Shown in pieces: positions 7-23,962 of a DNA stretch of 64,000 bases. The stretch is from a virus. Both the position numbers and the translations under genes were made by a program. The notes below the pieces were generated by a model. It saw nothing but the letters and a program-made list of their open reading frames with translations. It did no database searches and was not told the origin of the DNA. Every line of letters begins with the position of its first letter. The first letter of the stretch is position 1. The stretch is taken from positions 17,938 to 81,937 of the IMG/VR virus record IMGVR_UViG_3300023444_000001; one strand, given 5' to 3'.

Positions 7-3000
7 TCAGTCTTTGGAGTTGATATAATTCTTCCCTTCAACTCTATCACCAAAAACTTTTTTTAATTCTTTTTCCAATTTTGAATTTCGAACTCGAATA
101 ATTTTCACATCCTCAAAGTTTATTCCTCCCTCATGCACAAATTGAACTTCTTTCCGAAATACATTTGAAGCAATTTTCTTCCCTTTAACCTCCAAATTCC
201 CAGTTACCCCTTTATATAAATTTTCTACCCCAGAAAAAGTTTGCCCCTTAATTTTAAACAAAGTTTCCTTCTGAAAAAAGATATCTTTATCCAATACAAA
301 TTTGAACTCTCTATTTTTTCCGACAAATTTCGAGAAATCTAATTCTCCTCCTATCTTTCCCTCTTCTTCTAATGTAGTTGGAATCCTCTTAAACCATAAA
401 GCCTTCATTCCATCTTCACTTTTCAAATTCAAAATAATAGGCTTCAATTCTCTATCTATTGTCTCCACCATCTTTTCTCTTGGAACTGACTCAATATAAA
501 ACTTTTTCAAATTATCTAACATCTCCGACATGAATGTATCACCAATATCTTCCTGCTTTATAGGAATTAACTCCGAAAATCTCTTTGTAGCAAAAATCCT
601 ATTACGAGCCATAATATCTATTGGAGAATCAGAAGTCAAAATATAACTATAGACATCCCTATCCTGACCCAAACGAAAATTTCTCCCATTTCTCTGAATA
701 AATGTCTTAAAATTCTTCGGCAAATCAAGATGAATTGTAACTTTAGCCATTTGAACATTTATTCCTTCAGACTTTGCTGAAGTTAGAATCAAAAATTTCT
801 GCTCTGGAATTTCTGAAAACTTCTTGAGAATCTTTTGCACATCCATATTCTTTGTAGAACCTGTTAAAGCAACAGCCCTATCCTTCCCAAGAAAATTCCT
901 CAAATTCTTTGCTACTTCATTTGATTCTGTATGAATTATAATCTTATCATCGGGATGTTTCTTAGCAATTTTCAAAATTTCCTTATAAAAAGCATTATCT
1001 TTCCCTGAACCAGAACGCAAAACCTTCATTAAATCGTGCCGCCTATGTGTTTCTAATTGAACTAATTCTTTTGTTGCTCCCTTTCTAATCAACTCCTGCT
1101 TCTTAATTTCATACATTTTTTCCAAATTTCTATATTCCATTTTTTGAACTTTAGTCAACTTTACCTTTATTAACTGTTTATTTCTCATTTCAACAGGTAA
1201 AGCCTCATTAAAATAATCAATCAATCTGATCCCTCTTATTGGAGCCTTTGCAACAAATATTGAATCATCGAACAAACTATTAAATGTCTTAACCATCAAA
1301 GGCCGAGCAAAGTTATTCTCTGTTGTCAACCCACCAAAAACTCTTCCTCCAAATTTTGCCCCAGAAAACATATCGACAAATTCTCTCTTTGTCATTCCTG
1401 TTTTTCCGGGCTGTAACCATTCAATAGTATCCCACATCTGCCCAATATTATCCTTTATAGCCGTACCAGTAAGACCAACCTTATATTTAATCCTTTTTGA
1501 AACCAAATCTCTTAAAATCCTTGATTCTTTAGAATATGCTTCATAATCAAACACATCCCCAACAGGAGTTAAATCATGAATTTCATCTATAACAACCATA
1601 TCATACTTCATCCGTAATTCTTTAACCAATGAAGCCGCATCCTTATGTGTTATCACATCTATTTTATACTTACCAGGATTTTTCAACATTTTCAACTCTA
1701 TGTCTCTTTTCCCTGAAATCAATCTTCCCTTATATTTACTAAACTTTTTAATCTCACTAACCCAATTCATTTTTGTTCCTGATGGAACTACAACTAAAGC
1801 CCTTTTTACTTTTCCTGCTGAAATTAAATCTGAAATAGCAGAAATAGATGTCGGAGTTTTTCCAAATCCCACTCCAGCATTGAGTAAAACATTTTTCTGC
1901 TGAACAATAAATTCCTCTGCCGCCCTTTGAACTGGTTTCAAAGTTATACCTTCTTTAATACCCAAAATCTTTCTATCAAATACCCCTCCCTTCAAAACAA
2001 TATTATTTTTTATATCTTCAAACTCATTTTGCCAATTTTTAATTCTCTTCCATCGAATAGCATGAATATCAAGCCATTCTTCAAAATAAAATTTCCTTCT
2101 TTCCGGAAATCCTCTAACCCATTTAGGAATAACATAATAGGCTTTCCCAGTTTTAACATTCTTCCTGATATAAACATTCAAATACCTCATAGCCTTATTA
2201 AATTCCTTTGGAGTTCCTTGACTCCACTTCAATAACAATTCGGGAGAAGGCAAATTTTTTGCCATATCTGCACTTATACCCCAATCTATCAAAGTTTTAC
2301 TTCTTGAACGATAAGGCCAAATCCTATTAGTATAATTTATAAACTCTGATCCACCCAAACTATATGGATCACTCTTAACAAGAGCATCTCTAACAATAGC
2401 ATTTACTATCTCATCAGGAGGAATAAATTTTACAGGAATAAATCTTTCATCATCAATATCTAAAACATCAATTCCAATTTTTTTTAATTCATCTCTTGAA
2501 CCCACATAAGCAATTTCCTTAACCCCATCTCTTGCTTCCGTTATAGCCTCTGGAGTAAAAGATTTCAATGAACCTTTAACTCTAAAAAAGACTTTATGAT
2601 ATTTTTCTGGATTTATCTTAAACTGGTAAAATTTACCTATTTTTCCAAGTATTCCATCTTTTTTAACCTGCAAACCTAAAGTTTCTAATCTTCGCAATGC
2701 AGTTTCTCTTGTTTTTCCAAGTACAACAAAAACATCCTTTGGAGACATTAAAGCCAACCGAATCTGATCTACAGCATTCATACTACCCAGTATTCCACCT
2801 AATTCACTTTGTGCTTGTGAAAATAAACTATCAGCAATTACTCTTGAAGCATTTTTTCCTTTGAATCCAGCCTTTCTCATAGTCCGCAAAGTTGAATATC
2901 CATCATTAAGTAATCCATCAACACTCTTCAATCCACGCTTTGTATAAATTCCAATTCTTTGATGAGTAACCAACTTATCTAAAACCTCTAATAATTTTTT

Positions 3001-4332
3001 TCTGTCCACAGTTTTTGTACTTTGTTTTATTGCTTCAACAAGAACTTGACTTGCATTTTCAACTCCAAGCAAATTAAACTTTTCCCAAGTAAATGCTGGT
3101 TGCCCCAAAAGTTGAAAAGCAATTCCATTCATAGCATCAAAAGCACCTCTTTTGACCGGAAGAGAAAAAGCCGCATTTACAAAATTCTCTACCTCATAAT
3201 AATTACTATTTATAGCCTCCTTCAATTCACTCTCTGATTTCTTAAGAAGAACTTTTGCAAATGTTTTCATCCTACCCTTTCCCCCAACAGACTCCATTTT
3301 TGCAACTTCTCTAACCAAAGACCGAAATGTAGGCCCACTCATTTTATCTAATAAAGCAAGAGTCTCACCTGAAGCAAACCTTTTTGCTCGTTCAATAACA
3401 ATAGAAGGTAATCCTTTATGAACTAAATCTCTTGGAGAAAATTCTTGAGGAGATAATCCAGCCCTTTCAAAGGCTTCTCTTCTACGAGCCATAAGAGCCG
3501 TATAGACTGGACTTAATCCACATTGACAATATGGATGGGGAAATGTTGGGGCCTCATCAGTATAATATACCCCTCGAAGAGAAAGATTTCCAACAGAAAG
3601 ACCCTCTCCTTCAAGAGGTGTTGCATTAGCCAATTTTTCACAAATCTCTACTCCATGTTGATCCAAATGATTTGAAGACAAATCCCACTTAACAAGAGGA
3701 ACTCCCCTTTCTTTTGAAAAAAGAACAGTAGCCTCCTGATAAGCCCTTCCTGCTTCTGATCTAACTAATCTTTGTCCCCATTTTAATTCTGAAGCCCCAT
3801 AAGGAGACCTTCCCGGAATATTATAAGTCAATCTTCCTTTTAACTGTTGTCTAACAAAACTAATGCTTTTCCCCTTTTTAAGAACTGAATACCCAAAAGT
3901 TCTTATACGTTTATCCAAATAATTTAATCTATCTTCAATAGTTAATCCATTAAAGGGCTTAAAATATTGCATAAAAGCCCTTTTCTTAAAATCCTTAATT
4001 TCCTCCATCGAAATTGAAGATAATCCCATTTTTCTAAAAATTCTTTGCTGATGATAAAATGCTCTGTTAATAGATTCTGAAACTGCTTTATTTGTTTTAA
4101 CCTGAAGCCCAAACATCAATTCTTTTGTATTTTGTCGAAGTATTTCTCTTGAAAACTTTTCATCCTCTCGAAGTAAAAATCTCTCACCCTTAAATGAAGA
4201 TGTAACTGTATTTGCAAGATCAGTATATGCTCCATACAAATTATCTCCAATACGTTTACTTTTTCTTACATTTATATCTAACGCATGAACAAAACGCTTT
4301 CTCTGTATTTTCGTAGATAAATACTTAGGCAC
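7..4332 (-). CDS. MuF-like minor head protein fused to an SNF2-type helicase
   Basis: This 1441-residue protein joins two modules. The first 300 residues look like the Mu gpF minor head family: a basic helical start, then near residue 266 an HPYCQC motif typical of the family's C-terminal part. From about residue 810 it is an SF2/SNF2-type ATPase: Walker A NAGVGFGKT near 824, DEIH near 916, GLTGTA after it, and the arginine-finger motif QRNGRNFRLGQ near 1214. The middle (about 300-800) is helical and unrecognised. It overlaps the portal gene by 8 bases, the usual place for a MuF gene. MuF proteins alone are usually a few hundred residues, so this is a true fusion. By analogy with phage polyvalent proteins I infer that it sits in the head and may enter the cell with the DNA. 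The domain calls are firm; the injection role is inference. Confidence 0.85.
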   Translation of the reverse strand: MPKYLSTKIQRKRFVHALDINVRKSKRIGDNLYGAYTDLANTVTSSFKGERFLLREDEKFSREILRQNTKELMFGLQVKTNKAVSESINRAFYHQQRIFRKMGLSSISMEEIKDFKKRAFMQYFKPFNGLTIEDRLNYLDKRIRTFGYSVLKKGKSISFVRQQLKGRLTYNIPGRSPYGASELKWGQRLVRSEAGRAYQEATVLFSKERGVPLVKWDLSSNHLDQHGVEICEKLANATPLEGEGLSVGNLSLRGVYYTDEAPTFPHPYCQCGLSPVYTALMARRREAFERAGLSPQEFSPRDLVHKGLPSIVIERAKRFASGETLALLDKMSGPTFRSLVREVAKMESVGGKGRMKTFAKVLLKKSESELKEAINSNYYEVENFVNAAFSLPVKRGAFDAMNGIAFQLLGQPAFTWEKFNLLGVENASQVLVEAIKQSTKTVDRKKLLEVLDKLVTHQRIGIYTKRGLKSVDGLLNDGYSTLRTMRKAGFKGKNASRVIADSLFSQAQSELGGILGSMNAVDQIRLALMSPKDVFVVLGKTRETALRRLETLGLQVKKDGILGKIGKFYQFKINPEKYHKVFFRVKGSLKSFTPEAITEARDGVKEIAYVGSRDELKKIGIDVLDIDDERFIPVKFIPPDEIVNAIVRDALVKSDPYSLGGSEFINYTNRIWPYRSRSKTLIDWGISADMAKNLPSPELLLKWSQGTPKEFNKAMRYLNVYIRKNVKTGKAYYVIPKWVRGFPERRKFYFEEWLDIHAIRWKRIKNWQNEFEDIKNNIVLKGGVFDRKILGIKEGITLKPVQRAAEEFIVQQKNVLLNAGVGFGKTPTSISAISDLISAGKVKRALVVVPSGTKMNWVSEIKKFSKYKGRLISGKRDIELKMLKNPGKYKIDVITHKDAASLVKELRMKYDMVVIDEIHDLTPVGDVFDYEAYSKESRILRDLVSKRIKYKVGLTGTAIKDNIGQMWDTIEWLQPGKTGMTKREFVDMFSGAKFGGRVFGGLTTENNFARPLMVKTFNSLFDDSIFVAKAPIRGIRLIDYFNEALPVEMRNKQLIKVKLTKVQKMEYRNLEKMYEIKKQELIRKGATKELVQLETHRRHDLMKVLRSGSGKDNAFYKEILKIAKKHPDDKIIIHTESNEVAKNLRNFLGKDRAVALTGSTKNMDVQKILKKFSEIPEQKFLILTSAKSEGINVQMAKVTIHLDLPKNFKTFIQRNGRNFRLGQDRDVYSYILTSDSPIDIMARNRIFATKRFSELIPIKQEDIGDTFMSEMLDNLKKFYIESVPREKMVETIDRELKPIILNLKSEDGMKALWFKRIPTTLEEEGKIGGELDFSKFVGKNREFKFVLDKDIFFQKETLFKIKGQTFSGVENLYKGVTGNLEVKGKKIASNVFRKEVQFVHEGGINFEDVKIIRVRNSKLEKELKKVFGDRVEGKNYINSKD

Positions 4333-5743
4333 CTACTTTCCCCTTAAACATATCAGCAAAAGTACCTCCTCGACCACTTATACTTGCTTCTTGTTCTAAT
4401 TGAGTTTTATGCTCTTTATCAATTCGAGCCAATAATTCAGATATATTTTTAATTCCAAGACGACTTAAAGCCCCTTCACGATCTATCAACCCCAAAGATA
4501 ATTCCATTTCTAACTCTTGCAACAAAGTAATTCTATCCTTGGGCAATGGGTCCTTAAATACTACCGAAGTATCATATGCTTCAAAATCATCTCCATCCTT
4601 CAATTTTGGAATTTTTTTCTTTGTCTCCAAAATCTTCAAGATAAGTCGATTTGTTCTTTCTAATCCACGTCCATACGTAAGCCTTTTTAACTTCATTCTT
4701 TCTACAAGCGGCATATATTGAACATGAAGTGCCGCCGCAGATGTATTTGAAATAGGCTGCATTTGTCCTAAAGTGGCTTCAGGAACATTAGACATCTCAT
4801 GTAAACTCTTTTTTAACAATTCCAAATACTTTATCGAAGAAGATAAATTACCTGCCAGATTCAAAAACTTAACATCTCCATCCGTTGGTATATTTGACCA
4901 AACCCGCCCCGCAGACCTAATAACATTCTTAAATGAAACTCCTTTTATAACTGTAATAGGGGCACCATAATAGGCTATTGTATCTGAAACATCCGAAATT
5001 TTCTCATTATATTCCAAATTCAAATCTATTAAATTTATCATATCACTTAAACCCCAAAATACTCCACTTATAGGCAAATTTGAAATATGCACCAAAGGAA
5101 TCTCCATAATAGGATTTTCCAATGATTCCTTTAATTCATCATCAAGGTATAATTCAATTTTATCTTCATAAAAAATCTCTTTATATTTTCTTCTAACTCT
5201 TTCTCCAGTTTCAGTATTAAACTCATATATCGGAAATTCAATTTTTACCCATATAAGTCTTTCTCTATCACCTGGACTCCATACCACATCAACTAATCTG
5301 CCATCAACGACATTTAATGTAATCTTCTGCGAAACTTCATCAAACCAAATTTTTAGCCATGAATCCCCCGTAACTCCTCCCTCTTGAACTAATTCATACA
5401 AACGTAATCCACGAAAACTATCAGAACCCCAAGCCTTTATTAAGGCTTTTTCTCCCAAAGACTCATTAACCTTCGGCAAATTAAATTCCAACCCATTTCC
5501 AATTAAAGCAAAAGAAACCTTATCTACAAATGCTCTAACAAAATTCACAGTTAATTGAGATTCTCCCTCTTTTCCCTCAAATATCCAATGCTTTCCAAGA
5601 TACCACTTCCAATATTGATTATATTTTCTCCTCCTTTGTTCAAAAGCAACATCTTGATCTTCAGAAACATAATACAGAGGACCTTTAACTGCATTTTGTC
5701 CCGACTTAGATTTGCTAAAATCTATTCTCTCATTAGTAGCCAA
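4325..5743 (-). CDS. portal protein, SPP1 gp6-like
   Basis: A 472-residue protein of the portal family, which forms the dodecameric ring at the head vertex where DNA enters and where head joins tail. The overall pattern (N-terminal YRYY-like region around YNQYWKWYLGKHW, central acidic strands, and a C-terminal NTSAAALHVQYMPL helix followed by a charged tail) fits SPP1 gp6-like portals, and the length is normal for them. The gene lies between large terminase (11-base overlap) and the MuF-like gene (8-base overlap), the canonical order. I rely on both sequence pattern and position. Confidence 0.85.
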   Translation of the reverse strand: MATNERIDFSKSKSGQNAVKGPLYYVSEDQDVAFEQRRRKYNQYWKWYLGKHWIFEGKEGESQLTVNFVRAFVDKVSFALIGNGLEFNLPKVNESLGEKALIKAWGSDSFRGLRLYELVQEGGVTGDSWLKIWFDEVSQKITLNVVDGRLVDVVWSPGDRERLIWVKIEFPIYEFNTETGERVRRKYKEIFYEDKIELYLDDELKESLENPIMEIPLVHISNLPISGVFWGLSDMINLIDLNLEYNEKISDVSDTIAYYGAPITVIKGVSFKNVIRSAGRVWSNIPTDGDVKFLNLAGNLSSSIKYLELLKKSLHEMSNVPEATLGQMQPISNTSAAALHVQYMPLVERMKLKRLTYGRGLERTNRLILKILETKKKIPKLKDGDDFEAYDTSVVFKDPLPKDRITLLQELEMELSLGLIDREGALSRLGIKNISELLARIDKEHKTQLEQEASISGRGGTFADMFKGKVGA

Positions 5744-7397
5744 ATATATACCTCCTATTTAATCTTCTCCTTCTTGCTACATCCTTAAAAATATTAAAAT
5801 CATCGTCCTGCATTTCGACCATTGTTCCATCTTTAGAAGCCAAAACCATTAAGGCTAAACTATCAGCAAAATCATCTCTTGAACCTTTAATCATCGGGTC
5901 TTTTCCACAAACCAAAAATGCTCCACGCCAAGATTTTGTCAAATTAGTAACTTGCTCCTTAAATCTTTTCCATCGAGCAAGAGATTTATCAGCCTTTTTA
6001 CCCGGAACATGAATTCTCCCCGCATTAACTTCAGTCAACAATGTTTTCCACAAAATACTCTTAGCAGATAATCCTGAAAATGGATAGCCTCTTACAACTA
6101 CACTTGAATCATATCTATCATAATAACCAATAAATCTATCCGCAACCGGATCACCTTTACCTTGACTATCAATATAAACTACTCTAACATTGTAATTATT
6201 CAAAAATTCTACTATCTGTCCAAATTGACTTTCATGATCTTCCCCAAATAATTCCAACCAATTTTCAACATACAACTGGGCATTTCCTTCCTCATCCACA
6301 GAATCTAAATCTATCTTCCCAACAGTACAAACAGTGGAACAAGGTGATTTTCCAATGTCTATTCCAGCAACATGAGTTCCCTCTTTATCTAATGTAACAA
6401 TATGCCAAGACTCATCAACCATTTTTTCAAAAAACATATCTTCAGTAATTAGTGTCCCTTGAGAAAAAAGCCATTTTATTTCATAACTCATCTTAAATTC
6501 ATCAGAATCTTCTCCTAAACGATCTTTCTCTTTCTTAATAAACTGGGCATATTTCAAATGAATAGAGTTATGATCTTTTTCATACTGTTTCTTTTTATCT
6601 CTTATGGCTATCTGATATGGTACCTCTGTATGATAATCTCCTAATCCATCCGCTTTTCTCCGCCTATTTCTCTTTACAGCATAAAAAAAATCAGATTTCA
6701 ATCTATTTGGACTTCCCGTTTTAACTATAACCCCATTATAAGCCGCAAGCATCGGATGAATTGACTTCAAAACCTGCATACTATCGGCATCTTGAGCCTC
6801 ATCAATAAAAATAAGCATATAAGTCTTACTCTCAATTAAAGCCTGTTTATTGCAAGTAGCCGCCTTACAAAATGAACCATTAGAAAGACGTAGCCCCCCA
6901 TATCTTCTATCCAAATTAAGATCAAGGTCTGGATCACTTAATATCATCTTAGCATGATCTGTTTCAATTCGCATTTTGGTCCGAAGAAATGTTGTATCTA
7001 CTTGATCTGCTCTTGGAGCAAACATACCTACCCAGATACCATTCTTATAAATCGAAAGTTTATCCGGATAATATTCTGCAAGGGTAGGTAACAAAATCAT
7101 TGCTGAACCTGTAATTCCAGCAACAGTCTCTGTTTTTCCTGATTGTCGTGCAAATAAGGCTGTTATTTCTTCTCCATTATTTAGCAATAAAGACTTGAAA
7201 ACCTTAAATGCAAACTCTTTCTCATAATCATAAAAATTTAACTTTGTCAATTTTTCCGCAAACACTATAAGCCGCTCAGCCAGAAAATTAACATCAAATT
7301 CCGGCATTTTATCCGGAACATCATTAGATTCCTGATTCTCTAATGCAACTTGAGCATTATATTTCTCTAAACTAACCCTTCGAGCAATTTTAGGCAT
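5733..7397 (-). CDS. terL: terminase large subunit
   Basis: A 554-residue DNA-packaging motor. The N-terminal ATPase shows a Walker-A-type RQSGKT near residue 84 and a Walker B IFIDEAQD near 200. The C-terminal RNase-H-like nuclease shows acidic motifs GIDIGKSP near 347, YIDSQGKGD near 411 and DDFADSLAL near 509, the expected three-acid pattern. The length is typical. It cuts and pumps phage DNA into the prohead through the portal encoded next. The start at 7397 overlaps the end of the upstream glycosyltransferase by 31 bases and has an AAGAAG ribosome site. I did not find a clear small terminase next to it. Confidence 0.95.
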   Translation of the reverse strand: MPKIARRVSLEKYNAQVALENQESNDVPDKMPEFDVNFLAERLIVFAEKLTKLNFYDYEKEFAFKVFKSLLLNNGEEITALFARQSGKTETVAGITGSAMILLPTLAEYYPDKLSIYKNGIWVGMFAPRADQVDTTFLRTKMRIETDHAKMILSDPDLDLNLDRRYGGLRLSNGSFCKAATCNKQALIESKTYMLIFIDEAQDADSMQVLKSIHPMLAAYNGVIVKTGSPNRLKSDFFYAVKRNRRRKADGLGDYHTEVPYQIAIRDKKKQYEKDHNSIHLKYAQFIKKEKDRLGEDSDEFKMSYEIKWLFSQGTLITEDMFFEKMVDESWHIVTLDKEGTHVAGIDIGKSPCSTVCTVGKIDLDSVDEEGNAQLYVENWLELFGEDHESQFGQIVEFLNNYNVRVVYIDSQGKGDPVADRFIGYYDRYDSSVVVRGYPFSGLSAKSILWKTLLTEVNAGRIHVPGKKADKSLARWKRFKEQVTNLTKSWRGAFLVCGKDPMIKGSRDDFADSLALMVLASKDGTMVEMQDDDFNIFKDVARRRRLNRRYIFGY

Positions 7398-8365
7398 TCT
7401 TCTTTTAACTCCGCAATAATTTCATAACTTCTTAAATCCACTAAAACCAAAACATCTGGAGGTTTTTTAGGTGCCTTTTCAAGCCAAGAAAAAGCCTCCT
7501 CAATATCTCCTTTTCTTATTAAACTTCTTGCCAATATTACAAAATCTTCTCCAAAATTCGGATTCTCCAGTATATTTTTCTTAACTAAACTAATTGCATC
7601 ATCAAAATTTTCTAATCGTAAACTACTTTCTGCTTTCAATCTTCTTGCATATTGAATATTATATAAAATATAAGACTTTTTCTCTACTATATCAGCAACT
7701 TTATATCCTTCATGAAATTTTTTATGCTCAATCAATTCTCTTGCAAAATGAAGCAATAACCATCCTTCTTTATCATTCTCAAAATCTACTGCTTTTTCAA
7801 CTAAGTCTAAACTCTGTTCTCTTCTCCATTTCTCTCTTTCAAGATTTTTTCTTTTCCTGCATTCAATCCAAACTTTATCAGGAAGAATAACATCCATGAA
7901 ACCAGCACCAATCAATCTATTGTGAACATCTCCTATCCACCAACCTTTATTAACCCGCCATATTCTATTTTGAAATCCCCTAAACCTGAACCTAACTTCG
8001 TTAGTTTTTCTATGCTTATATGGTCTTCTAAAATATGAAAGAGCATATCCAGCCACTTTTTTCCCAGAATTATCTAAAAGACCTCTTAAATATTCAGAAC
8101 TTCCCCTTAAAGTTTCATCTCCATCAACCATAATAGCCCATTCAGTTTTAACAAATGAAGAACAAACATTTCTTAAATGAGCAAAAGAATTATTCCATTT
8201 CTCTTCTAAAACTTTTGCTCCAAATTGTTTTGCCAATTCTACAGTTCCATCCTTTGATCCAGTATCTAAAATCACCATATCATCAACAAAAGGCACAATA
8301 CTCTCCAATGTTTCTTTTAATTCCTCCTCTTCATCTCGTACAATCATTGATAAAGTTAAACCCAT
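7367..8365 (-). CDS. family 2 glycosyltransferase with helical repeats
   Basis: A 332-residue GT-A-type glycosyltransferase. Residues 1-100 carry the GT2 start LTLSMIVRDEEEEL, the DTGSKDGT motif, and VDGDETL as the metal-binding acidic motif. The last third is helical and reads like TPR repeats (for example AISLVKKNILENPNFGEDFVILARSLI). Such TPR-bearing GT2 proteins transfer a sugar from a nucleotide sugar, but the acceptor cannot be told from sequence. Its location is odd: it overlaps terL by 31 bases and so is co-expressed with virion genes rather than with the other glycosyltransferases at 20-24 kb. It could decorate a virion protein, cell surface or DNA; I cannot choose. Confidence 0.85.
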   Translation of the reverse strand: MGLTLSMIVRDEEEELKETLESIVPFVDDMVILDTGSKDGTVELAKQFGAKVLEEKWNNSFAHLRNVCSSFVKTEWAIMVDGDETLRGSSEYLRGLLDNSGKKVAGYALSYFRRPYKHRKTNEVRFRFRGFQNRIWRVNKGWWIGDVHNRLIGAGFMDVILPDKVWIECRKRKNLEREKWRREQSLDLVEKAVDFENDKEGWLLLHFARELIEHKKFHEGYKVADIVEKKSYILYNIQYARRLKAESSLRLENFDDAISLVKKNILENPNFGEDFVILARSLIRKGDIEEAFSWLEKAPKKPPDVLVLVDLRSYEIIAELKEECLKLLEGLV

Positions 8366-8511
8366 ATTTTCCTTACAATATCCATAATTCGACTGCTTTT
8401 ATCAATTTTCTGATTCTTCTTATCAAAATAAGTCTTTTTATTGCTATAAAACCTGCTTGTTCTTCCATATTCAAAATCCAAATATCTGCTCCCACCCTTT
8501 CTCTTTGACAT
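8356..8511 (-). CDS. small basic hypothetical protein, 51 aa
   Basis: An open frame of 51 codons, rich in Lys, Arg and Tyr, starting MSKRKGGSRYLDFEYG. It begins 4 bases inside the overlapping ATGAATG after the preceding 45-aa gene, and its stop overlaps the start of the glycosyltransferase by 10 bases, so it fits the operon exactly. A GAGGT sequence lies upstream. No family recognised. Its tight fit is the main support. Confidence 0.5.
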   Translation of the reverse strand: MSKRKGGSRYLDFEYGRTSRFYSNKKTYFDKKNQKIDKSSRIMDIVRKIWV

Positions 8512-8649
8512 TCATTTTACCTCTTTCTTCTTTTTCTTATTAGGCAAACGCTTCAAATACTTCTTTCCATACTTACGAACCCATCTTCGAGCAATTCCTG
8601 GGTGAAAAGCAAATAAAAATCTCATCTGTGCTTTTGACTTAAAAGGCAT
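8512..8649 (-). CDS. small basic phage protein, 45 aa
   Basis: A 45-residue protein starting MPFKSKAQMRFLFAFHPGI and ending in a run of lysines. The MPFKSKAQxRFLFAxHPxIA pattern is a familiar small conserved phage protein of unknown function, often near head or packaging genes. The start has AAAGGAATG upstream. It is the first gene after a rho-independent terminator, so it may begin the packaging operon, although I see no strong promoter here. Length is normal for this kind of protein. Confidence 0.75.
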   Translation of the reverse strand: MPFKSKAQMRFLFAFHPGIARRWVRKYGKKYLKRLPNKKKKKEVK

Positions 8650-8663
8650 CATTCATTCCTTTC

Positions 8664-8709
8664 TACAAAAAATCCCCCATAAATCTCCCTTTCAGGCTAT
8701 TCATGGGGG
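8664..8709 (-). terminator. rho-independent terminator
   Basis: On the minus strand a stem with arms CCCCCATGAAT and ATTTATGGGGG (8674-8709, one G-U pair) is followed by ATTTTTTG. This is a strong terminator closing the accessory operon after the 82-aa gene and before the packaging genes. Confidence 0.85.
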
Positions 8710-8740
8710 CACTATAGTCAATCTAATTATCAAACTAATA

Positions 8741-8989
8741 TTACAATATCTTTTTTCTCCTGTCAACCTTAACAACACTATATTTTCCAGATTCTATCCA
8801 TTTACGTGCTAATTCTCTATCTTCTTCCCTCCCACAATCCAAATTTCTATCTGGATACATCAGCATATCTTCCAAACAATGAGCCACTGTACCAGTATAT
8901 ATCATTCCAGGGCGTCTCCCATTTCCCCAATTAGAAATAATTGCCAACAACTCATAAACTCTTTCTCTTAACAAAGTATTTGAACCCAT
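8741..8989 (-). CDS. hypothetical protein, 82 aa
   Basis: I start it at ATG 8989 (MGSNTLLRERVYEL) because a GGAG sits 8 bases upstream and this ATG overlaps the stop of the resolvase gene as TAATG; the frame stays open further upstream but without a better site. It contains two Cys and ends in a basic KVDRRKK tail. Length is 82 residues. No family recognised. It is the last gene before a terminator. Confidence 0.65.
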   Translation of the reverse strand: MGSNTLLRERVYELLAIISNWGNGRRPGMIYTGTVAHCLEDMLMYPDRNLDCGREEDRELARKWIESGKYSVVKVDRRKKIL

Positions 8990-9483
8990 TATTTTACTCC
9001 AACAAAATTTATTTTTAACCGTCTTCTTCCCCACTCCGCTAAAAGCAAAGCCTCAGCCAACCCATGATCTTTTCTAATCCAATCATAACTTATTTTAGGA
9101 AAAATCCTTTTAACTGCCACAAGAGATTTTCCTTTCTTATCTGACCCGGGAATACCAATTAGCATATCTCTTTTCCATTTAACCGGAGATACCAACTCAA
9201 AAGGAATTTTCAAACAAGAAAGTATTCCTATCCAAACCCCATATCCATATCCATAATTAAACATTGAAGATACACCCTGCTTCGGCATAGCCTGGGCTTT
9301 TTCTACAATAGCATAAATTTTCTTTTTCTTTGCAACCCCCAAACAAATAATCTCAACCATCTTAGACTCATCATATAATCGTTTTCCCGAAACTCTAATA
9401 AATGGACATTTAACAACTTTAATTTCTTTTTCATCAAGAAAAGCCACTGCTCCAGTTATCCCTGGATCAATCCCAATAATCAT
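8989..9483 (-). CDS. RuvC-like Holliday junction resolvase
   Basis: A 164-residue RNase-H-fold nuclease of the RuvC type. Residues 1-10 are IIGIDPGITG, the classic first-strand motif with the catalytic Asp; IVEKAQAMPKQG near 60 supplies the second acid; RKDHGLAEALLLAEW near 140 supplies the C-terminal acids. Phage RuvC-like enzymes cut branched DNA before packaging, and the gene sits upstream of the terminase genes. The start overlaps the preceding gene as ATGA. Confidence 0.85.
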   Translation of the reverse strand: MIIGIDPGITGAVAFLDEKEIKVVKCPFIRVSGKRLYDESKMVEIICLGVAKKKKIYAIVEKAQAMPKQGVSSMFNYGYGYGVWIGILSCLKIPFELVSPVKWKRDMLIGIPGSDKKGKSLVAVKRIFPKISYDWIRKDHGLAEALLLAEWGRRRLKINFVGVK

Positions 9484-9674
9484 TCTTCCCTCCGTGCTTT
9501 TTCTCTCAAAAGTTTATAAGCAATCTGTATTCGCTTATCAACCTCCTTTCTCCATTTTATTCTATCTTCCTCAGATTGATTTTTTATATAAGGAGGAAGA
9601 GGCGGCCAATTAACATCTTTTAGAACTGACTTAATAGAACTCGATGATTTCTCTTTTTTCAAAAATTTTTTCAT
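9480..9674 (-). CDS. hypothetical basic protein, 64 aa
   Basis: A 64-residue, highly charged protein starting MKKFLKKEKSSSSIKS with a central WPPLPPYIKN segment. Its stop overlaps the resolvase start as ATGA, so the two are translationally coupled. No family recognised; probably an accessory DNA or protein binder at best. Confidence 0.6.
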   Translation of the reverse strand: MKKFLKKEKSSSSIKSVLKDVNWPPLPPYIKNQSEEDRIKWRKEVDKRIQIAYKLLREKARREE

Positions 9675-9677
9675 AAC

Positions 9678-9866
9678 TTATTCTTTTTCCTTTTTACAAT
9701 CAAGCATATTTCTAACCGGAATATCAACCTGTGCTCTCCAAGCCTTATCAAATCTTGAAAATTTTGGCATAGGTTCAGGCTTAACCCCTCTTACTAAATC
9801 AATACCCCTTTTATAACAATCCATACAAATAATAGCCGTCTTAACACCACATTTCCTGCACAGCAT
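9678..9866 (-). CDS. small zinc-ribbon-like protein, 62 aa
   Basis: Starts at ATG 9866 with GGAG 8 bases upstream; a TTG one codon earlier is less likely. Two cysteine pairs, CRKCG and CMDC, lie within the first 20 residues and probably bind zinc. It lies 3 bases upstream of the next gene in the operon. AT-rich like the phage backbone, it marks the downstream edge of the GC-rich island. Confidence 0.6.
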   Translation of the reverse strand: MLCRKCGVKTAIICMDCYKRGIDLVRGVKPEPMPKFSRFDKAWRAQVDIPVRNMLDCKKEKE

Positions 9867-9890
9867 CAATTTTCTCCTTTCAATTTTTTC

Positions 9891-10100
9891 TTAATGAAAC
9901 ACATAATATGCCCAAGCATATCCCAGCCCCACGCAGAGCATCCCCCACAATATCCACGGAGTAGCCCGGTCGATCATCTCGGTGATCTTGCCAGGCTGAT
10001 ATGGTGGCACATCCCGCCAATCGCCCTGGCGGACATGATCTCTAAGGTGCCAGAGTCTCAGTGCATCCCAATCTTGTCTACTACGCTCTTGTGGGTTCAT
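9891..10100 (-). CDS. small protein with one membrane segment, 69 aa
   Basis: A 69-residue protein: about 45 polar residues, then a hydrophobic segment (TPWILWGMLCVGLGYAWAYY) at the C-terminus, so probably tail-anchored in the inner membrane. GGAGGGAAAGCC precedes the ATG, which overlaps the stop of the upstream gene. Base use is clearly GC-rich compared with flanking genes; first or last member of the GC-rich island. Function unknown. Confidence 0.6.
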   Translation of the reverse strand: MNPQERSRQDWDALRLWHLRDHVRQGDWRDVPPYQPGKITEMIDRATPWILWGMLCVGLGYAWAYYVFH

Positions 10101-10387
10101 GGCTTTCCCTCCTCTATCACCCGGTTGACTGCTTCCAGGTCCGCAATCTTACGCTCCAATTCGCATCGCTGTTCGATGGCCTTCTTTAGTTCCGCCATTG
10201 CCCAATCGCGCTTGCGCTCTGTATTCTGCAGTTGTACTACAGCCTCGATATACGCCCGTCTGAGGTCCAGCACTTGTTGATCTTGGCGCAAGACCTCTAC
10301 CACGACTATGGCACGGAAGAGGTACAATATGCCTATCAGGATTCCACTGAAGGCAACTGAGCCTATGACAATTTCGTACCAATGCAC
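10097..10387 (-). CDS. membrane-anchored coiled-coil protein, 96 aa
   Basis: I start it at GTG 10387 because GAGGAGG lies 7 bases upstream; the open frame continues further up but with no ribosome site. The product has an N-terminal membrane segment (IVIGSVAFSGILIGILYLF) followed by a long coiled coil rich in Gln, Glu, Arg and Leu. This layout resembles an i-spanin (Rz), though I see no lysis genes nearby, so this is only a possibility. It belongs to the GC-rich island and overlaps the next gene as ATGA. Confidence 0.6.
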   Translation of the reverse strand: MHWYEIVIGSVAFSGILIGILYLFRAIVVVEVLRQDQQVLDLRRAYIEAVVQLQNTERKRDWAMAELKKAIEQRCELERKIADLEAVNRVIEEGKP

Positions 10388-10462
10388 TTTTAGCCTCCTC
10401 TCTTTATATGGCCCCCGGTGGGGTGATCGACTGCTGGCCTGCAAGTCTCCACTCTGCACCCT

Positions 10463-10594
10463 CTATACCGGGGGCTCATGGTCATTTATCCTGTCCCGGA
10501 GGGCCTGTATCCTGCGCTCGATGTGTCCCTTGACACCCTCCAGTTCCTCAATGGTCTGCTGGTAGCAGATTATCGCGACTTTGTTCGTGTCCAT
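10463..10594 (-). CDS. small hypothetical protein, 43 aa
   Basis: A 43-codon gene (MDTNKVAIICYQQTIEELEG, then a charged helix ending INDHEPPV) with a very good ribosome site, GGAGGTGAAAC before the ATG. Predicted to be mostly helical. Its stop lies next to one arm of a 9-bp inverted repeat (gcccccggt at 10411-10419, accgggggc at 10467-10475) that spans the gap to the next gene. GC-rich island. Function unknown. Confidence 0.55.
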   Translation of the reverse strand: MDTNKVAIICYQQTIEELEGVKGHIERRIQALRDRINDHEPPV

Positions 10595-10617
10595 GTTTCA
10601 CCTCCATTTGGTTAACA

Positions 10618-10839
10618 TTATCGTTTCTGATAGTATTCAAAGACCATAACTATCATCTGCGTTAATGTCTCGTTGCCTTCTATTAACCCCTTTATTGTCC
10701 GTCCGTCTCTGCCGAAGTTTACAAGCATAGTGGCCCGTGCCTCCAGCAACTCTCGCTTCATCGGCAGAATATCATCCTCCTCAAGCGCTTTGACCAGTTC
10801 CCATATCTTACATCGGTTTAATCTCATTGCCCCCCCCAT
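10618..10839 (-). CDS. hypothetical protein, 73 aa
   Basis: A helical 73-residue protein (EEDDILPMKRELLEARATML, then FGRDGRTIKGLIEG). The start is uncertain: ATG 10839 has no ribosome site, while ATG 10827 (MRLNRCKIWELV) follows a run of eight G that could serve. GC-rich island. No family recognised. Confidence 0.55.
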   Translation of the reverse strand: MGGAMRLNRCKIWELVKALEEDDILPMKRELLEARATMLVNFGRDGRTIKGLIEGNETLTQMIVMVFEYYQKR

Positions 10840-10841
10840 AT

Positions 10842-11048
10842 CTAATTAGATGTGCGTCTTAATGCCTGATAGAAAACGTCATTCATCAGTAATTTTTTTC
10901 TGGTATCGCTGATAAACTCAGAGCCGCCCAGACAAAAATCAGGATGCCTTGAGTAGAACTCCTCAAATTGTCTAAGATACGCATCAGCGGCCTGCATCTG
11001 TTCTGCTGTCCCGTAAGGCATTGTTAATATTTTTTTCGCCCTTTTCAT
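10842..11048 (-). CDS. hypothetical protein, 68 aa
   Basis: A 68-residue protein, MKRAKKILTMPYGTAEQMQ, with an AGGAGGGAAAG site directly before the ATG. Predicted mainly helical, with an LRQFEEFYSRHPDFCLGG centre. GC-rich island, same operon. No family recognised. Confidence 0.55.
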   Translation of the reverse strand: MKRAKKILTMPYGTAEQMQAADAYLRQFEEFYSRHPDFCLGGSEFISDTRKKLLMNDVFYQALRRTSN

Positions 11049-11082
11049 CTTTCCCTCCTTTTCAGGTTGCGGCCAGTGGCCG

Positions 11083-11394
11083 TTAGTCCTTTATCAGGTT
11101 TATGACGTTGTCTTTCGTTATCTCTGCTATGACCGCTGGGGGCAAATTCCAAAAGTTTATTACTATAGGCTTCCTGGTGTCTGTAATGATTGCCAGGTCC
11201 CCACCACGGCCGGGGCAGATAGTCACATGGTCATTGCGACGTTCTGCCTGCCGCGCCGCCTCTTCGAGTATGGCCTTTGCGTCGCCAGTGCGCATGATAT
11301 TATCGCCTGCATCGCTTGCCAGGTGATACGCATGCCGGAACACCGGGCCGTGAAGGGTTAATTGTCTGGTTTCGGAAATTTCAATGTAAAGCAT
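11083..11394 (-). CDS. hypothetical protein, 103 aa
   Basis: Starts at ATG 11394 (MLYIEISETRQLTL) because AGGAGGTGTGAC directly precedes it and the upstream gene stops just before that site. The same frame is open for about 45 more codons upstream and reads surprisingly protein-like (VWQAYKQRYGDDCTEADY), so a longer or formerly longer protein is possible. The mature part has mixed strands and ends NVINLIKD. GC-rich island. No family recognised. Confidence 0.55.
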   Translation of the reverse strand: MLYIEISETRQLTLHGPVFRHAYHLASDAGDNIMRTGDAKAILEEAARQAERRNDHVTICPGRGGDLAIITDTRKPIVINFWNLPPAVIAEITKDNVINLIKD

Positions 11395-11405
11395 GTCACA
11401 CCTCC

Positions 11406-11600
11406 TCAATCCTGCCAGCCCTCGAAGGGCCCGCATGTAATCTGCCTCTGTGCAGTCGTCACCATAGCGCTGTTTGTATGCCTGCCAGACCACCAATGTT
11501 CGTCTGGTTTTTCTCCATGTAATGACTTATTGGCGGGGCAAGGAATCTTTTCCAATTGTGCACATGAGGGAATATGTTTAATTTGTTCAGATTTTTTCAT
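11406..11600 (-). CDS. hypothetical protein, 64 aa
   Basis: Chosen start ATG 11600 (MKKSEQIKHIPSCAQ) follows GGAGGGATGAG. The first 20 codons are AT-rich like the phage and the rest is GC-rich, so the upstream border of the island falls inside this gene. The C-terminal half (GEKPDEHWWSGRHTNSAMV) competes with a more protein-like reading in another frame, so the gene may be a chimera made by insertion or a frameshifted remnant. Three Cys. Function unknown. Confidence 0.4.
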   Translation of the reverse strand: MKKSEQIKHIPSCAQLEKIPCPANKSLHGEKPDEHWWSGRHTNSAMVTTAQRQITCGPFEGWQD

Positions 11601-11639
11601 CTCATCCCTCCTCAATTAAATCAAAACCAAATTTTTTCT

Positions 11640-11894
11640 TTAATCCCATCCCCAACAACCACAATAATATAAATCTGTCTCTTTATCCGGTCGATAAGAG
11701 AAAAATGGTAATCCAATCCTTGAATCTGTAACATTATCACATTGACAGCATTCAGCCTTTCTTCCTTCCAAAGAAGGCATTTCAGCAATTTCTATGGCTT
11801 CCGGAACTATACCAAAACAACTTGCACAAACCGGATTTCCTTTTTCATCAACAGCAGTTGCTGTATGTCCACATTTCATCATAACTATAGACAT
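11640..11894 (-). CDS. small zinc-binding-like protein, 84 aa
   Basis: An 84-residue protein with KCGH and CASCFG early, CCQCDN in the middle and YYCGCWGWD at the end, so one or two zinc sites are likely. GGAGGGAAAA before the ATG. AT-rich again, so outside the GC island. Cysteine-rich small proteins of this kind are common in phage accessory regions; function unknown. Confidence 0.6.
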   Translation of the reverse strand: MSIVMMKCGHTATAVDEKGNPVCASCFGIVPEAIEIAEMPSLEGRKAECCQCDNVTDSRIGLPFFSYRPDKETDLYYCGCWGWD

Positions 11895-11946
11895 TTTTCC
11901 CTCCTTTAGTAAAAATAATACCTTTCCTCACAAAAATCAAATTTTC

Positions 11947-12462
11947 TTATTTCAGATATGAATATGAATACACATCCTTCAAAGTCCGAAATTTATCTCC
12001 TTTTCCCATTCCATATCCAACAAGAAAGCCATCCTCCTCTCTTACTTTGAATCCGACATATTTCACCCTATCTATGCCCTTATCCCTTTCAAACAAAACA
12101 CATCCCTCAATAGACCTCGGATTTTCCTTCTCTAAAGACCTTTTTACTTCTTCAAAACTTTTTCCTGTGTCTAAAATATCATCTATAATCAAAACATTTC
12201 TATCTTTCACTTTCTTCAAATCAAACATGAAGTTTACTTTCAAATTTTCCGAAGGATTTAATTCTTCTCCATAAGAAAAAACTCCAGCAAATTGAATTTC
12301 CGGTGATAAACCAGAATATCGAATTAAATCCCATCCAAAAGGAAATCCTCCTTTCAATACAATAAGAAAGAAAGGATTCTTTCCCCAATAATCAAAATTT
12401 ATTCTCCGAGATATTTCATAAACCTTTCCTTTTATTTCCCTTTCCTTAAATATTTTCTTCAT
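11947..12462 (-). CDS. phosphoribosyltransferase, hypoxanthine type-like
   Basis: A 171-residue PRT-fold enzyme. The PRPP-binding motif NVLIIDDILDTGKSFEEV lies near residues 88-105, and ILVLKGGFPFGWDL-like text near 35 matches the PPi-loop region of hypoxanthine/guanine phosphoribosyltransferases. Length and order of motifs are typical of that group (about 170-180 residues). It would convert a free purine base and PRPP to the nucleotide. In this phage it could feed purine salvage, or handle a modified purine, but the substrate cannot be read from sequence. A terminator lies just upstream (12509-12555). Confidence 0.8.
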   Translation of the reverse strand: MKKIFKEREIKGKVYEISRRINFDYWGKNPFFLIVLKGGFPFGWDLIRYSGLSPEIQFAGVFSYGEELNPSENLKVNFMFDLKKVKDRNVLIIDDILDTGKSFEEVKRSLEKENPRSIEGCVLFERDKGIDRVKYVGFKVREEDGFLVGYGMGKGDKFRTLKDVYSYSYLK

Positions 12463-12508
12463 TTTTTACCTCCTTTAGTAAACTGAACTTTTCTAATCTC
12501 ATTCTTTT

Positions 12509-12555
12509 TTAAGAAAAAATTAGACCGGACTTTTCAAAATCCAGTCTTTTTTTAA
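12509..12555 (-). terminator. rho-independent terminator, possibly bidirectional
   Basis: Arms AGACTGGA and TCCGGTCT (12522-12529 and 12540-12547, with G-U pairing) enclose a 10-base loop; the minus-strand transcript then runs into AATTTTTT, and the plus strand also has a T run. It lies about 80 bases downstream of the solitary CRISPR repeat and would end that transcript. Confidence 0.8.
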
Positions 12556-12635
12556 GAAGAGTATCCATGACCCTCTTTTGTCTATCCATTTAAGGGGGGG
12601 GGGTATTATCTTTCTTTCCTTTCCCTCTATAGGAT

Positions 12636-12667
12636 GTTTCAATCCACGCCCCCGCGCGGGGGGCGAC
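12636..12667 (-). ncRNA. solitary type I-C CRISPR repeat unit, candidate RNA anti-CRISPR
   Basis: A single 32-base sequence that, read on the minus strand, begins GTCGCCCCCCGCGC and ends GGGGGCGTGGATTGAAAC. It has the 7-bp CGCCCCC/GGGGGCG stem, the invariant GTCGC start and the TGGATTGAAAC 3-prime handle of type I-C repeats. No second repeat lies within a spacer distance on either side, and no cas genes are seen. It sits in the gap between two genes with a terminator downstream. Phage solitary repeat units that mimic crRNA and trap Cas proteins are known; this is that arrangement. I see no strong promoter directly upstream, so it may be cut from the operon transcript. Confidence 0.8.
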
Positions 12668-12700
12668 TGTATACACCTCAAGTGTTTTAACTCCTTTGAA

Positions 12701-12955
12701 TTACATCTTCATTTCCGACATCCTCCTTTCATATTCAGAATCAAAAAATTTCGTCTTATTTCCACATTCAGAACAAATTCCTTCAAACTCTGTTTCCTCT
12801 TCATCTATTGTTCTCCAACATTTCATTTCATCAGACAATTTTACTGGAGGTTCTCCACAACAAATAGACCTCCAATCTGGCTCAAACTCTTCTTCTCTTT
12901 CACAAAATTTCTCTGCTTTACAACGACAACAATTCATTGTACACATCTCATCCAT
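12701..12955 (-). CDS. small cysteine-rich protein, 84 aa
   Basis: An 84-residue acidic protein with CCRC near the start, SICCGEPP in the middle and ICSECGNKT near residue 60; at least one zinc ribbon is likely. It is the gene just upstream of the solitary CRISPR repeat and probably shares its transcript. Function unknown; its neighbourhood makes it worth testing as an anti-CRISPR or its regulator, but nothing in the sequence itself shows that. Confidence 0.6.
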   Translation of the reverse strand: MDEMCTMNCCRCKAEKFCEREEEFEPDWRSICCGEPPVKLSDEMKCWRTIDEEETEFEGICSECGNKTKFFDSEYERRMSEMKM

Positions 12956-12961
12956 TTTTTC

Positions 12962-13132
12962 TCACTTATCTTTCAAAAGTGTTACGTGAATAACCTCAAC
13001 CCACTTTCTACACCTTGCACACTTTCCAAATACAAGATCAGTTGGATATTCGAGATCAGAGGTCAAAGTTCCATAAATTGGCCAATGACCACAAATAGTC
13101 TTCCAATCCTTATCAATTCTAATTCTTTTCAT
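12962..13132 (-). CDS. small zinc-binding-like protein, 56 aa
   Basis: Starts at ATG 13132 (MKRIRIDKDWKTICGHW), preceded by GGAGGCACAAA; the longer open frame upstream is the shadow of the neighbouring gene. A CGH and a later CARCRKW suggest a zinc site. It overlaps the preceding gene by 14 bases. Function unknown. Confidence 0.6.
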   Translation of the reverse strand: MKRIRIDKDWKTICGHWPIYGTLTSDLEYPTDLVFGKCARCRKWVEVIHVTLLKDK

Positions 13133-13427
13133 TTTGTGCCTCCAATTTTCGATACCATTCTTCAGGATACCCAGGATACTCCATTCTACGAAGAGTGGAG
13201 CGAATCCCAAGGTCTTTAGCCAACTTATCACGAAGATCAAACCAAGGATTGTAATCCACATTATCACCTTGTTCTTCACTCCAGCACTCTGGGAAAACCA
13301 TCCCTGCTAAAGCGTGTGAATATCTCTCGTTCCTATCTAATCTTGATACTGCATCTGTTATAGCAACCAAGATTTCCTCACGACCATTGAGTTTTACAAG
13401 TGCTGATTTTATTGTCGATATACGCAT
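13119..13427 (-). CDS. hypothetical protein, 102 aa (paralogue of 14225-14524)
   Basis: Start ATG 13427 (MRISTIKSALVKLNGREEIL) follows GGGAGGTTTGTA. It is clearly homologous along its whole length to the protein at 14225-14524: both share GREEIL, RYSHALAGMV, PECWS, GIRSTLRRMEYPGYPEEWY. The two arose by a tandem duplication about 1 kb apart. No known family; predicted helical. The first 50 bases lie within the end of the upstream gene. Confidence 0.65.
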   Translation of the reverse strand: MRISTIKSALVKLNGREEILVAITDAVSRLDRNERYSHALAGMVFPECWSEEQGDNVDYNPWFDLRDKLAKDLGIRSTLRRMEYPGYPEEWYRKLEAQNEKN

Positions 13428-13590
13428 TACAAACCTCCCTTTCATTATACCAATCTTCTTCTCCATCATCCCACCGAATTTTTACTCTTCCTTTATGAGA
13501 ATCCAAAGCAATTACTTCTGCATATCGTACTTTATCCCCTTCTGGAATTTCCAAATTCTGTTTGAGATAAAACATTGTTGATTGTCTCAT
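13378..13590 (-). CDS. hypothetical protein, 70 aa
   Basis: Start ATG 13590 (MRQSTMFYLKQNLEIPEGD) follows GGGAGGTTACA and lies just downstream of a strong promoter. The sequence VRYAEVIALDSHKGRVKIRWDDGEEDWYNE looks like a small beta barrel (SH3 or Tudor-like). Its last 17 codons overlap the next gene by 50 bases, which is unusual here, so a shorter original C-terminus may have been lost. Confidence 0.55.
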   Translation of the reverse strand: MRQSTMFYLKQNLEIPEGDKVRYAEVIALDSHKGRVKIRWDDGEEDWYNEREVCNAYIDNKISTCKTQWS

Positions 13591-13627
13591 TGTAACCTCC
13601 CTTTGTTTGAAAGTTAAAGTTTGATTG

Positions 13628-13664
13628 TATAATATAATATAATATATCTCTTTGAAAAAGTCAA
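13628..13664 (-). promoter_or_regulatory. sigma70-type promoter
   Basis: On the minus strand TTGACT (13659-13664) is separated by 17 bases from TATATT (13636-13641). It belongs to a set of six near-identical promoters in the window, and points at the 70-aa gene starting 13590. Confidence 0.85.
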
Positions 13665-13695
13665 GGGTTTTGTTTGTCAAAAGATTCTTTCCTCC

Positions 13696-13884
13696 TTACT
13701 CAATCTCACAATATTCCTCAATTAGACTGATAACCTCAGAATATGACGAACTTTCAAAAGCACGTTTAACAAACTCTTTTGCTCTCTCCTTCTCCCCAGC
13801 CTTTAGCAAAGCCTTCTTCGTAAGGCCAATCAAATTGAAAACATTCCCATTCTTTCCAACCAATTTCACTACTGGCTTTTCCAT
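13696..13884 (-). CDS. hypothetical helical protein, 62 aa
   Basis: MEKPVVKLVGKNGNVFNLIG followed by two charged helices. AAGGAGGAATAAA precedes the ATG. The GKNGNxFNLIG pattern with a helical tail is a type of small conserved phage protein of unknown role. It overlaps the upstream gene by 16 bases. Confidence 0.6.
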   Translation of the reverse strand: MEKPVVKLVGKNGNVFNLIGLTKKALLKAGEKERAKEFVKRAFESSSYSEVISLIEEYCEIE

Positions 13885-14078
13885 TTTATTCCTCCTTGTT
13901 TTGAACCTGGTTGAACCTGGATTTTACCATCCAAAGTCTTAGTCACCAAAGACAACTCTGAATTTTCATCCATCCCAAAAACTACCAACAAATAAGCAAC
14001 ATTCCTTCCAATTTCATCACCACACCAATGGCACATAACCTTCCCATTCCCCAAAACAACTATTCTCTCCATTACCAT
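13869..14078 (-). CDS. small protein with CxxC, about 69 aa
   Basis: The frame contains MCHWCGDEIGRNVAYLLVVFG, a likely metal-binding pair, and ends QGGIKWKSQ. The start is uncertain: a TTG at 14093, ATG at 14078 or 14072, and ATG 14036 (with GGGAAGGTT upstream) are all possible. I give 14078. Function unknown. Confidence 0.5.
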   Translation of the reverse strand: MVMERIVVLGNGKVMCHWCGDEIGRNVAYLLVVFGMDENSELSLVTKTLDGKIQVQPGSKQGGIKWKSQ

Positions 14079-14150
14079 TGAAATGCAATCCAAGCCAATT
14101 CATCATTTTCTCCTTATTTTTTTAGTCCTAAAATCAACTGTGCTGTGTTC

Positions 14151-14201
14151 AAAAAGAAGAGAGGAAGAAAAAAGAAGCCAAAATTTTCTCTTCCTCTCTT
14201 C
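14151..14201 (-). terminator. rho-independent terminator
   Basis: A perfect 13-bp stem, GAAGAGAGGAAGA with TCTTCCTCTCTTC (14156-14168 and 14189-14201), is followed on the minus strand by TTTTTG. It ends the transcript after the 99-aa paralogue. Confidence 0.85.
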
Positions 14202-14224
14202 TCAAATCAGAATCAATCCCAATC

Positions 14225-14524
14225 TCAATCGGTGGCATCCAACTTTTGGTACCATTCTTCAGGATAACCCGGATATTCCATTCTGCGAAGAGTGGAACGA
14301 ATCCCATATTCTTTTGCCAACTTATGCCGGAGATCAAACCAAGGAGTGTAGTCAACCCAATCTCCCTGTTCATCAGACCAACACTCCGGGAGAACCATCC
14401 CTGCCAAGGCATGAGAATATCTCTCACCTCGATTTAATTTTGTCAGAGCATCTGTTATCGCCGCAAGAATCTCCTCCCGACCACCCAATTCCGCCAACAC
14501 ACCTTTTATTGTCCTAACTCGCAT
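14225..14524 (-). CDS. hypothetical protein, 99 aa (paralogue of 13119-13427)
   Basis: MRVRTIKGVLAELGGREEIL, homologous end to end to the 102-aa protein at 13119-13427. The best conserved blocks are the ERYSHALAGMV segment and the C-terminal GIRSTLRRMEYPGYPEEWY. AGGAGGTTGC precedes the ATG. Function unknown, and no domain recognised. A terminator follows it. Confidence 0.65.
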   Translation of the reverse strand: MRVRTIKGVLAELGGREEILAAITDALTKLNRGERYSHALAGMVLPECWSDEQGDWVDYTPWFDLRHKLAKEYGIRSTLRRMEYPGYPEEWYQKLDATD

Positions 14525-14604
14525 TGCAACCTCCTTCTTGTTTCCTTGTTTTGCACCAAATCATTTTCACAGTTTCTTCATCTCATCCTTACTTTTGCCT
14601 TTGT

Positions 14605-15006: not shown

Positions 15007-15049
15007 TTTGTGCCTCCTTAAAGTTAAGGTTAAAAGTGAAGTTTAATTG

Positions 15050-15086
15050 TATAATATAATATAATATATTTGCTTGAAAAAGTCAA
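15050..15086 (-). promoter_or_regulatory. sigma70-type promoter
   Basis: TTGACT (15081-15086), 17 bases, TATATT (15058-15063) on the minus strand, with the same TTGACTTTTTCAA context as the promoter at 13628-13664. It drives the 133-aa gene. Confidence 0.85.
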
Positions 15087-15096
15087 GGGTTTTGTT

Positions 15097-16665: not shown

Positions 16666-16705
16666 TTCCAATATCCTATTTGAAAGATAGAGCACAAAAG
16701 ATTAA

Positions 16706-16805: not shown

Positions 16806-16808
16806 ACG

Positions 16809-18239: not shown

Positions 18240-18255
18240 TTTTATCCCTTGAAAT

Positions 18256-21161: not shown

Positions 21162-21173
21162 ACTTCAGTCTCC

Positions 21174-21875: not shown

Positions 21876-21949
21876 ACAATATTATCCTTATCTTTGATTC
21901 TTCAAAACCATCTTTGTATTCATAAAAGTAAAATTTCTCTTAATTTATC

Positions 21950-23959: not shown

Positions 23960-23962
23960 CTT

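Follow-up and report, generated by a model that had tools for sequence, protein, structure and literature searches.

A MuF-type minor head domain fused to a head-module SNF2 ATPase in a myophage, and its possible role at DNA entry

Why should a phage join a minor head domain to a DNA motor in one gene, directly behind its portal gene? The question is raised by a MuF-SNF2 frame at one edge of the window, the 64,000-nucleotide stretch analyzed here, which was taken from an 81,937-base virus record (IMGVR_UViG_3300023444_000001) and covers its bases 17938-81937. A first-pass annotation, made from the sequence, had reported a single frame of 1441 residues combining a MuF-type part and an SNF2 ATPase. 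The exact frame was recovered on the minus strand, from GTG to stop, with no internal stop across its 1441 codons, and both domains were matched by profiles and homologues (Table 1).

Table 1. Features of the MuF-SNF2 locus and of the 7-deazaguanine gene set, in window coordinates
Feature	Position	Strand	Size or basis
MuF-SNF2 fusion ORF	7..4332	-	1441 aa, 163 kDa; GTG start inside portal gene end
MuF/minor head domain, residues 1-286	3475..4332	-	phrog_1657, Marinitoga match, tblastn
HPYCQC motif (MuF C-terminal HPxCxC signature), residues 266-271	3520..3537	-	alignment to Marinitoga protein
Middle domain, residues 394-583	2584..3153	-	profile HMM, hhalign, AlphaFold2
Linker before ATPase, residues 584-794	1951..2583	-	poorly modeled; phrog_62 match begins at 721
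SNF2 ATPase, residues 795-1256	565..1950	-	all motifs present
C-terminal tail, residues 1257-1441	10..564	-	no match, low model confidence
SPP1-type portal protein	4325..5743	-	PF05133 E=5e-34; phrog_64 E=8e-45
Terminase large subunit (TerL)	5733..7397	-	phrog_2 E=3e-22
Transglycosylase-like	16809-18239	-	7-deazaguanine gene set
QueC-like	21174-21875	-	7-deazaguanine gene set
GTP cyclohydrolase (FolE-like)	23963-24538	-	7-deazaguanine gene set
QueE-like	24770-25483	-	7-deazaguanine gene set

The operon runs from TerL through the portal gene to MuF-SNF2, with the portal gene overlapping both neighbors. The TerL is 35-37% identical to TerLs from phages and viral contigs. The fusion gene lies directly 3' of the portal gene, the place that MuF genes typically occupy (PMC5576092). 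Past the window edge, it is followed by genes for a 115-aa protein, a cohesin-like protein, a dockerin/LamG protein, a 1478-aa FN3/CBM protein, a 262-aa protein at the scaffold position, the major capsid protein (MCP) and, at the end of the record, a tail sheath protein. Because of the tail sheath gene, we take the virus to be a myophage. The cohesin-like protein, the dockerin-LamG protein with its signal-like start and the FN3-CBM96 protein (record bases 11472-17575, ahead of the window) form a set that is unusual for a head cluster, lying as it does between MuF-SNF2 and the scaffold and capsid genes.

The MuF-like start with its HPYCQC motif, noticed in the first-pass annotation, was borne out by homology. 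The PHROG "head morphogenesis" family phrog_1657 matched residues 187-277 (E=5.5e-7), and the minor head protein of a Marinitoga virus was 28% identical to the MuF domain (E=5e-12), its HPHCNC aligning with HPYCQC. In tblastn searches of the MuF part against annotated MuF and head proteins, the best match had an E value of 2e-7; the protein did not reach the threshold of the Pfam MuF model PF04233. A single-sequence structure model of residues 1-400 was discarded (mean pLDDT of 38).

MuF proteins bind portals, and the portal of phage SPP1 targets its MuF protein, gp7, to the interior of the procapsid (PMC6316719). SPP1 lacking gp7 assembles normally, but only ~25% of the virions are infectious (PMC6316719). 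As in the window phage, the gene for gp7 follows that of an SPP1-type portal and encodes a minor head protein; unlike the window protein, gp7 stops at the end of its MuF part and has no cargo.

The cargo of the window protein is an SNF2 ATPase. Pfam models matched it in both lobes (Helicase_C, E=1.5e-15; SNF2-rel, E=7e-9), and phrog_62 matched over residues 721-1250 (E=4e-56). A complete ATPase with DEIH and arginine motifs had been proposed, and every motif was found intact: GVGFGKT at residues 820-826, DEIH at 916-919, LTGTAI at 954-959, SEGINVQ at 1188-1194 and QRNGRNFRLGQ at 1213-1223. Thus, motifs I, II, III, V and VI of SWI2/SNF2 proteins are present, together with a predicted two-lobe fold resembling SNF2 nucleosome remodelers on double-stranded DNA. 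Enzymes of the SNF2 class move along duplex DNA and do not separate its strands (PMC5512222). Since the fold is that of SNF2 remodelers, which move in this way, the label "helicase" given in the first-pass annotation is probably wrong; the SNF2 ATPase stands and is better read as a dsDNA translocase.

About 500 residues separate the MuF part from the ATPase, and at first they looked orphan; ahead of the linker they include a middle domain that the first-pass annotation had missed. This domain defines the head-module SNF2 family (the full-length type of phrog_62) and is common to ORF61 of Morganella phage Mecenats66, the proteins of Bordetella phage PHB04 and Thermus phage phiMa_61, and the window protein. 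Its detection required a profile: when the middle region by itself served as the tblastn query, none of 50,697 phage records matched. The window protein aligned with a profile built from full-length phrog_62 proteins at a score of 54.9, the first alignment covering residues 394-555, as opposed to a maximum of 26.0 in 150 shuffles and 18.7 for the reversed sequence. A deeper profile of 53 sequences gave an hhalign score of 68.4 for residues 393-581 and did not match the MuF part. A profile HMM built from the middle region of the family scored 38.7 bits against the window protein and matched none of the DarB-like, replicative and other SNF2 proteins tested. The first-pass annotation had suggested a structure prediction of residues 300-800; AlphaFold2 (46 sequences) modeled the middle domain, mostly at pLDDT 70-90, as long helices in a bundle and, after them, a strand-helix-strand-strand element, but gave a poor model of the linker.

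In the SNF2 tree, the window protein fell beside the head-module family with a support of 93/95 (85 in a reduced tree), albeit on a long branch, and alternative placements were not rejected by the AU test (p values of 0.14 and 0.28). Because of the long branch and these surviving alternatives, the family argument rests on the middle domain. Phrog_62 itself covers the window protein only at 721-1250; the MuF domain and ~107 residues without assignment lie where the family has its N-terminal stretch. Judged by these profile matches, the non-MuF part of the window protein is a member of a family of large SNF2 proteins encoded in head-gene clusters.

The genes of this family are mostly found in the head/packaging module just ahead of the protease, scaffold and MCP genes, even though phrog_62 is annotated merely as "DNA helicase." In Mecenats66, terminase, portal and two small ORFs are followed by ORF60 (minor head), ORF61 (SNF2), a prohead protease, another protein and the MCP. 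ORF60, which has an HPNCRG ending and weak MuF matches, overlaps ORF61 by 4 bp. The order terminase-portal-MuF-SNF2-MCP is that of the window phage, and ORF61 and the PHB04 protein ATI15643, both full-length phrog_62 members, share the middle domain and SNF2 ATPase with the window protein. However, MuF and SNF2 are separate genes in Mecenats66, the Mecenats66 and PHB04 SNF2 proteins carry an extra N-terminal stretch ahead of the middle domain, a prohead protease follows, and the MuF lineage is a different one. The fusion therefore did not come about simply by loss of one stop codon between Mecenats66-type MuF and SNF2 genes; as far as the sequences tell, it arose from another MuF than that of Mecenats66.

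In PHB04, a 2097-aa DarB-like methylase-ATPase is encoded just upstream of ATI15643, and the MCP downstream. The large Thermus phage proteins phiMa_61 and Cumys_43 share the middle domain and the C-terminal SNF2 part and are encoded directly before the head protease and MCP (in phage Cumys, the order is Cumys_43, head maturation protease, MCP), but about 1000 residues precede their ATPase and no MuF domain was matched. In Thermus phage Lalka27b, a family member (8353-13500) lies among tail and baseplate genes and does not adjoin the capsid gene.

Among 80 IMG/VR viral contigs with the SNF2 family, 63 had a prohead protease and 57 an MCP. MuF-like genes were found in 35, of which 13 had theirs upstream of the SNF2 ORF at a distance of no more than 450 bp. 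DarB-like methylase genes were found in about 35, once four cross-matches that fell within the SNF2 gene itself had been set aside. The flanks covered did not exceed 7 kb, and absences from these counts mean little. Three viral contigs (L165, L166 and L181; 788-3013) carried a 742-aa MuF gene ending in ...GGIVVHN followed by CRG..., which looks as if an intein preceded the conserved cysteine of the HPxCRG motif.

No close relative of the whole MuF-SNF2 protein was found in IMG/VR and GTDB genomes, and the fusion is carried by one contig. No ORF resembling it was present in the best 80 TerL relatives; in those examined, the portal gene was directly followed by scaffold and capsid genes, and the order is also portal, scaffold, MCP in Streptomyces phages BRock and GiJojo. 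Scans with alignments of the SNF2 part, the C-terminal part or the middle domain yielded no second fusion. A screen of 395 genomes returned MuF ORFs of up to 780 aa and a single 804-aa frame that matched weakly, and SNF2 was not found in the two longest clear MuF matches. These searches relied on short conserved peptides and were not sensitive, so that divergent relatives can escape them; within this reach there is no other MuF-SNF2 fusion, and the pair already occurs as separate genes in related phages. The TerL genes of Bacteroides phage BS162P1 (L017:2335-5058) and of a fecal phage (L018, near 2199-4805) matched in two pieces over ~900 codons, suggestive of an insertion such as an intein.

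By its sequence, then, the window protein is a fused form of two gene types that adjoin or lie near each other in many myophages. Since neighbors that are otherwise encoded separately have been fused, a physical partnership between them is predicted. A natural fusion to a portal-address domain also predicts that the family works with the portal inside the particle.

Two groups of known proteins bear on what such a partnership may do. MuF fusions have been proposed as toxin delivery proteins (PMC6316719, PMC5576092). The MuF polymorphic toxins resemble the window protein in their N-terminal MuF, C-terminal cargo and gene position right after the portal, but the cargo here is a predicted ATP-driven DNA motor rather than a toxin; the account of these toxins does not mention helicase or SNF2 (PMC5576092). 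We rejected a toxin reading of the window protein, whose C-terminal part consists of the SNF2 ATPase and an unmatched tail, with no toxin domain. The range of MuF fusion cargo would thereby widen from toxins to DNA motors.

The second group comprises P1 DarB and other SWI2/SNF2 polyvalent proteins, whose SNF2-class ATPases are predicted to accompany the phage DNA into the cell; DarB, a protein of the P1 head, contains an SNF2 part and acts in cis to protect DNA (PMC5512222). According to a report that cites the P1 work, DarB and Ulx are both present in P1 virions and are needed to withstand type I restriction (PMC11437467). In DarB, an adenine methylase precedes the ATPase, whereas the window protein lacks a methylase and its middle domain shows no match to DarB-like proteins. 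Membership in the DarB group was rejected: no methylase model matched the MuF-SNF2 protein, and no DarB-like methylase was found in the phage genome.

The explanation that we prefer, and to which we give an even chance, is that the MuF part serves as an address domain for a head-module SNF2 dsDNA translocase that is packed into the head and acts on phage DNA at entry. It starts from what was observed directly: how the domains are arranged, that all motifs are intact, where the gene lies and to which family the non-MuF part belongs. While the procapsid is being built, the MuF domain would bind the SPP1-type portal and a few copies would enter the head, where the ATPase would remain with the packaged DNA. 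At infection, it would exit with or before the DNA and, fueled by host ATP, move on the incoming duplex and strip off host proteins, for example restriction complexes. The motor is probably packed in the virion; this location is supported indirectly, because the portal is of the SPP1 type, the SPP1 portal targets gp7 and the family genes lie in head clusters. A literature search for virion proteomics of any head-module SNF2 relative returned nothing. The target at entry is probably restriction or bound proteins; the first-pass annotation had likewise suggested that the carried helicase could remodel DNA or repel host defense proteins. The motor may act alone or belong, as one arm, to an antirestriction set of the DarB kind; the methylase arm would then be absent from this phage or replaced by 7-deazaguanine DNA modification. 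The possible MuF-free form described below, the confinement of the fusion to one contig, the MuF lineage that differs from that of Mecenats66, the other placements left open by the SNF2 tree and the failure to find a DarB-like methylase count against this explanation.

An unlikely alternative is that the ATPase acts in assembly or packaging: held at the portal by MuF, it would clear or remodel DNA during head filling and remain as a minor structural protein. The position of the family genes in the head/packaging module, mostly ahead of protease, scaffold and MCP, and the portal binding of MuF proteins (PMC6316719) are both consistent with such a role. However, the packaging motor is already supplied by the terminase, SPP1 assembles without gp7 and its defect is one of infection (PMC6316719), and the frequent DarB-like neighbor points to entry.

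We consider it quite unlikely that the fusion is split by internal initiation or proteolysis and that the SNF2 part works inside the cell, in replication, repair or transcription, rather than in the virion. A MuF-free form could be made from an internal ATG, at residue 355, that has a weak ribosome site, and the annotation of phrog_62 speaks only of a DNA helicase. Against this stand the family's neighbors, which are head genes, the head cluster of this phage, in which no protease gene was recognized, and the replication cluster. The latter encodes a separate replicative SNF2 protein (phrog_16; window 42891-44246), a DnaB-like helicase, a primase, PolA and a UvsX-like recombinase. Since the phage has its own replicative SNF2 and helicase set, the head-module motor appears dispensable for replication, and with this separate machinery at hand we ranked a replicative-helicase reading below the preferred one.

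Very unlikely, in our judgment, is a portal-tethered SNF2 translocase that stays in the head and, driven by ATP, powers or steers DNA entry into the cell. The combination of a complete, predicted dsDNA-translocase fold with a portal-type address domain would suit it, and, if true, it would add a further drive for genome entry to head pressure and polymerase pulling. Yet such a motor would need host ATP while held within the head, and the relatives with separate genes have no covalent tie to MuF. That the contig joins unrelated pieces, or that the gene is decayed, is hardly credible: the fusion is indeed known from one contig, but it has 1441 open codons, no stops and all motifs intact, and its parts are exactly the gene types that adjoin or lie near each other in other phages.

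Returning to the preferred reading of a head-packed translocase acting at entry, the 7-deazaguanine gene set (window 16809-25483, minus strand) suggests that the phage DNA is modified, which would provide another antirestriction route. Adjoining the second SNF2 gene, window positions 44256-47597 (minus strand) encode a pair of a CobT-like protein (704 aa) and a CobS-type AAA ATPase (404 aa). Between window positions 10001 and 12000, the G+C content rises to as much as 46%, compared with ~33% for the genome, and the ORFs there are small.
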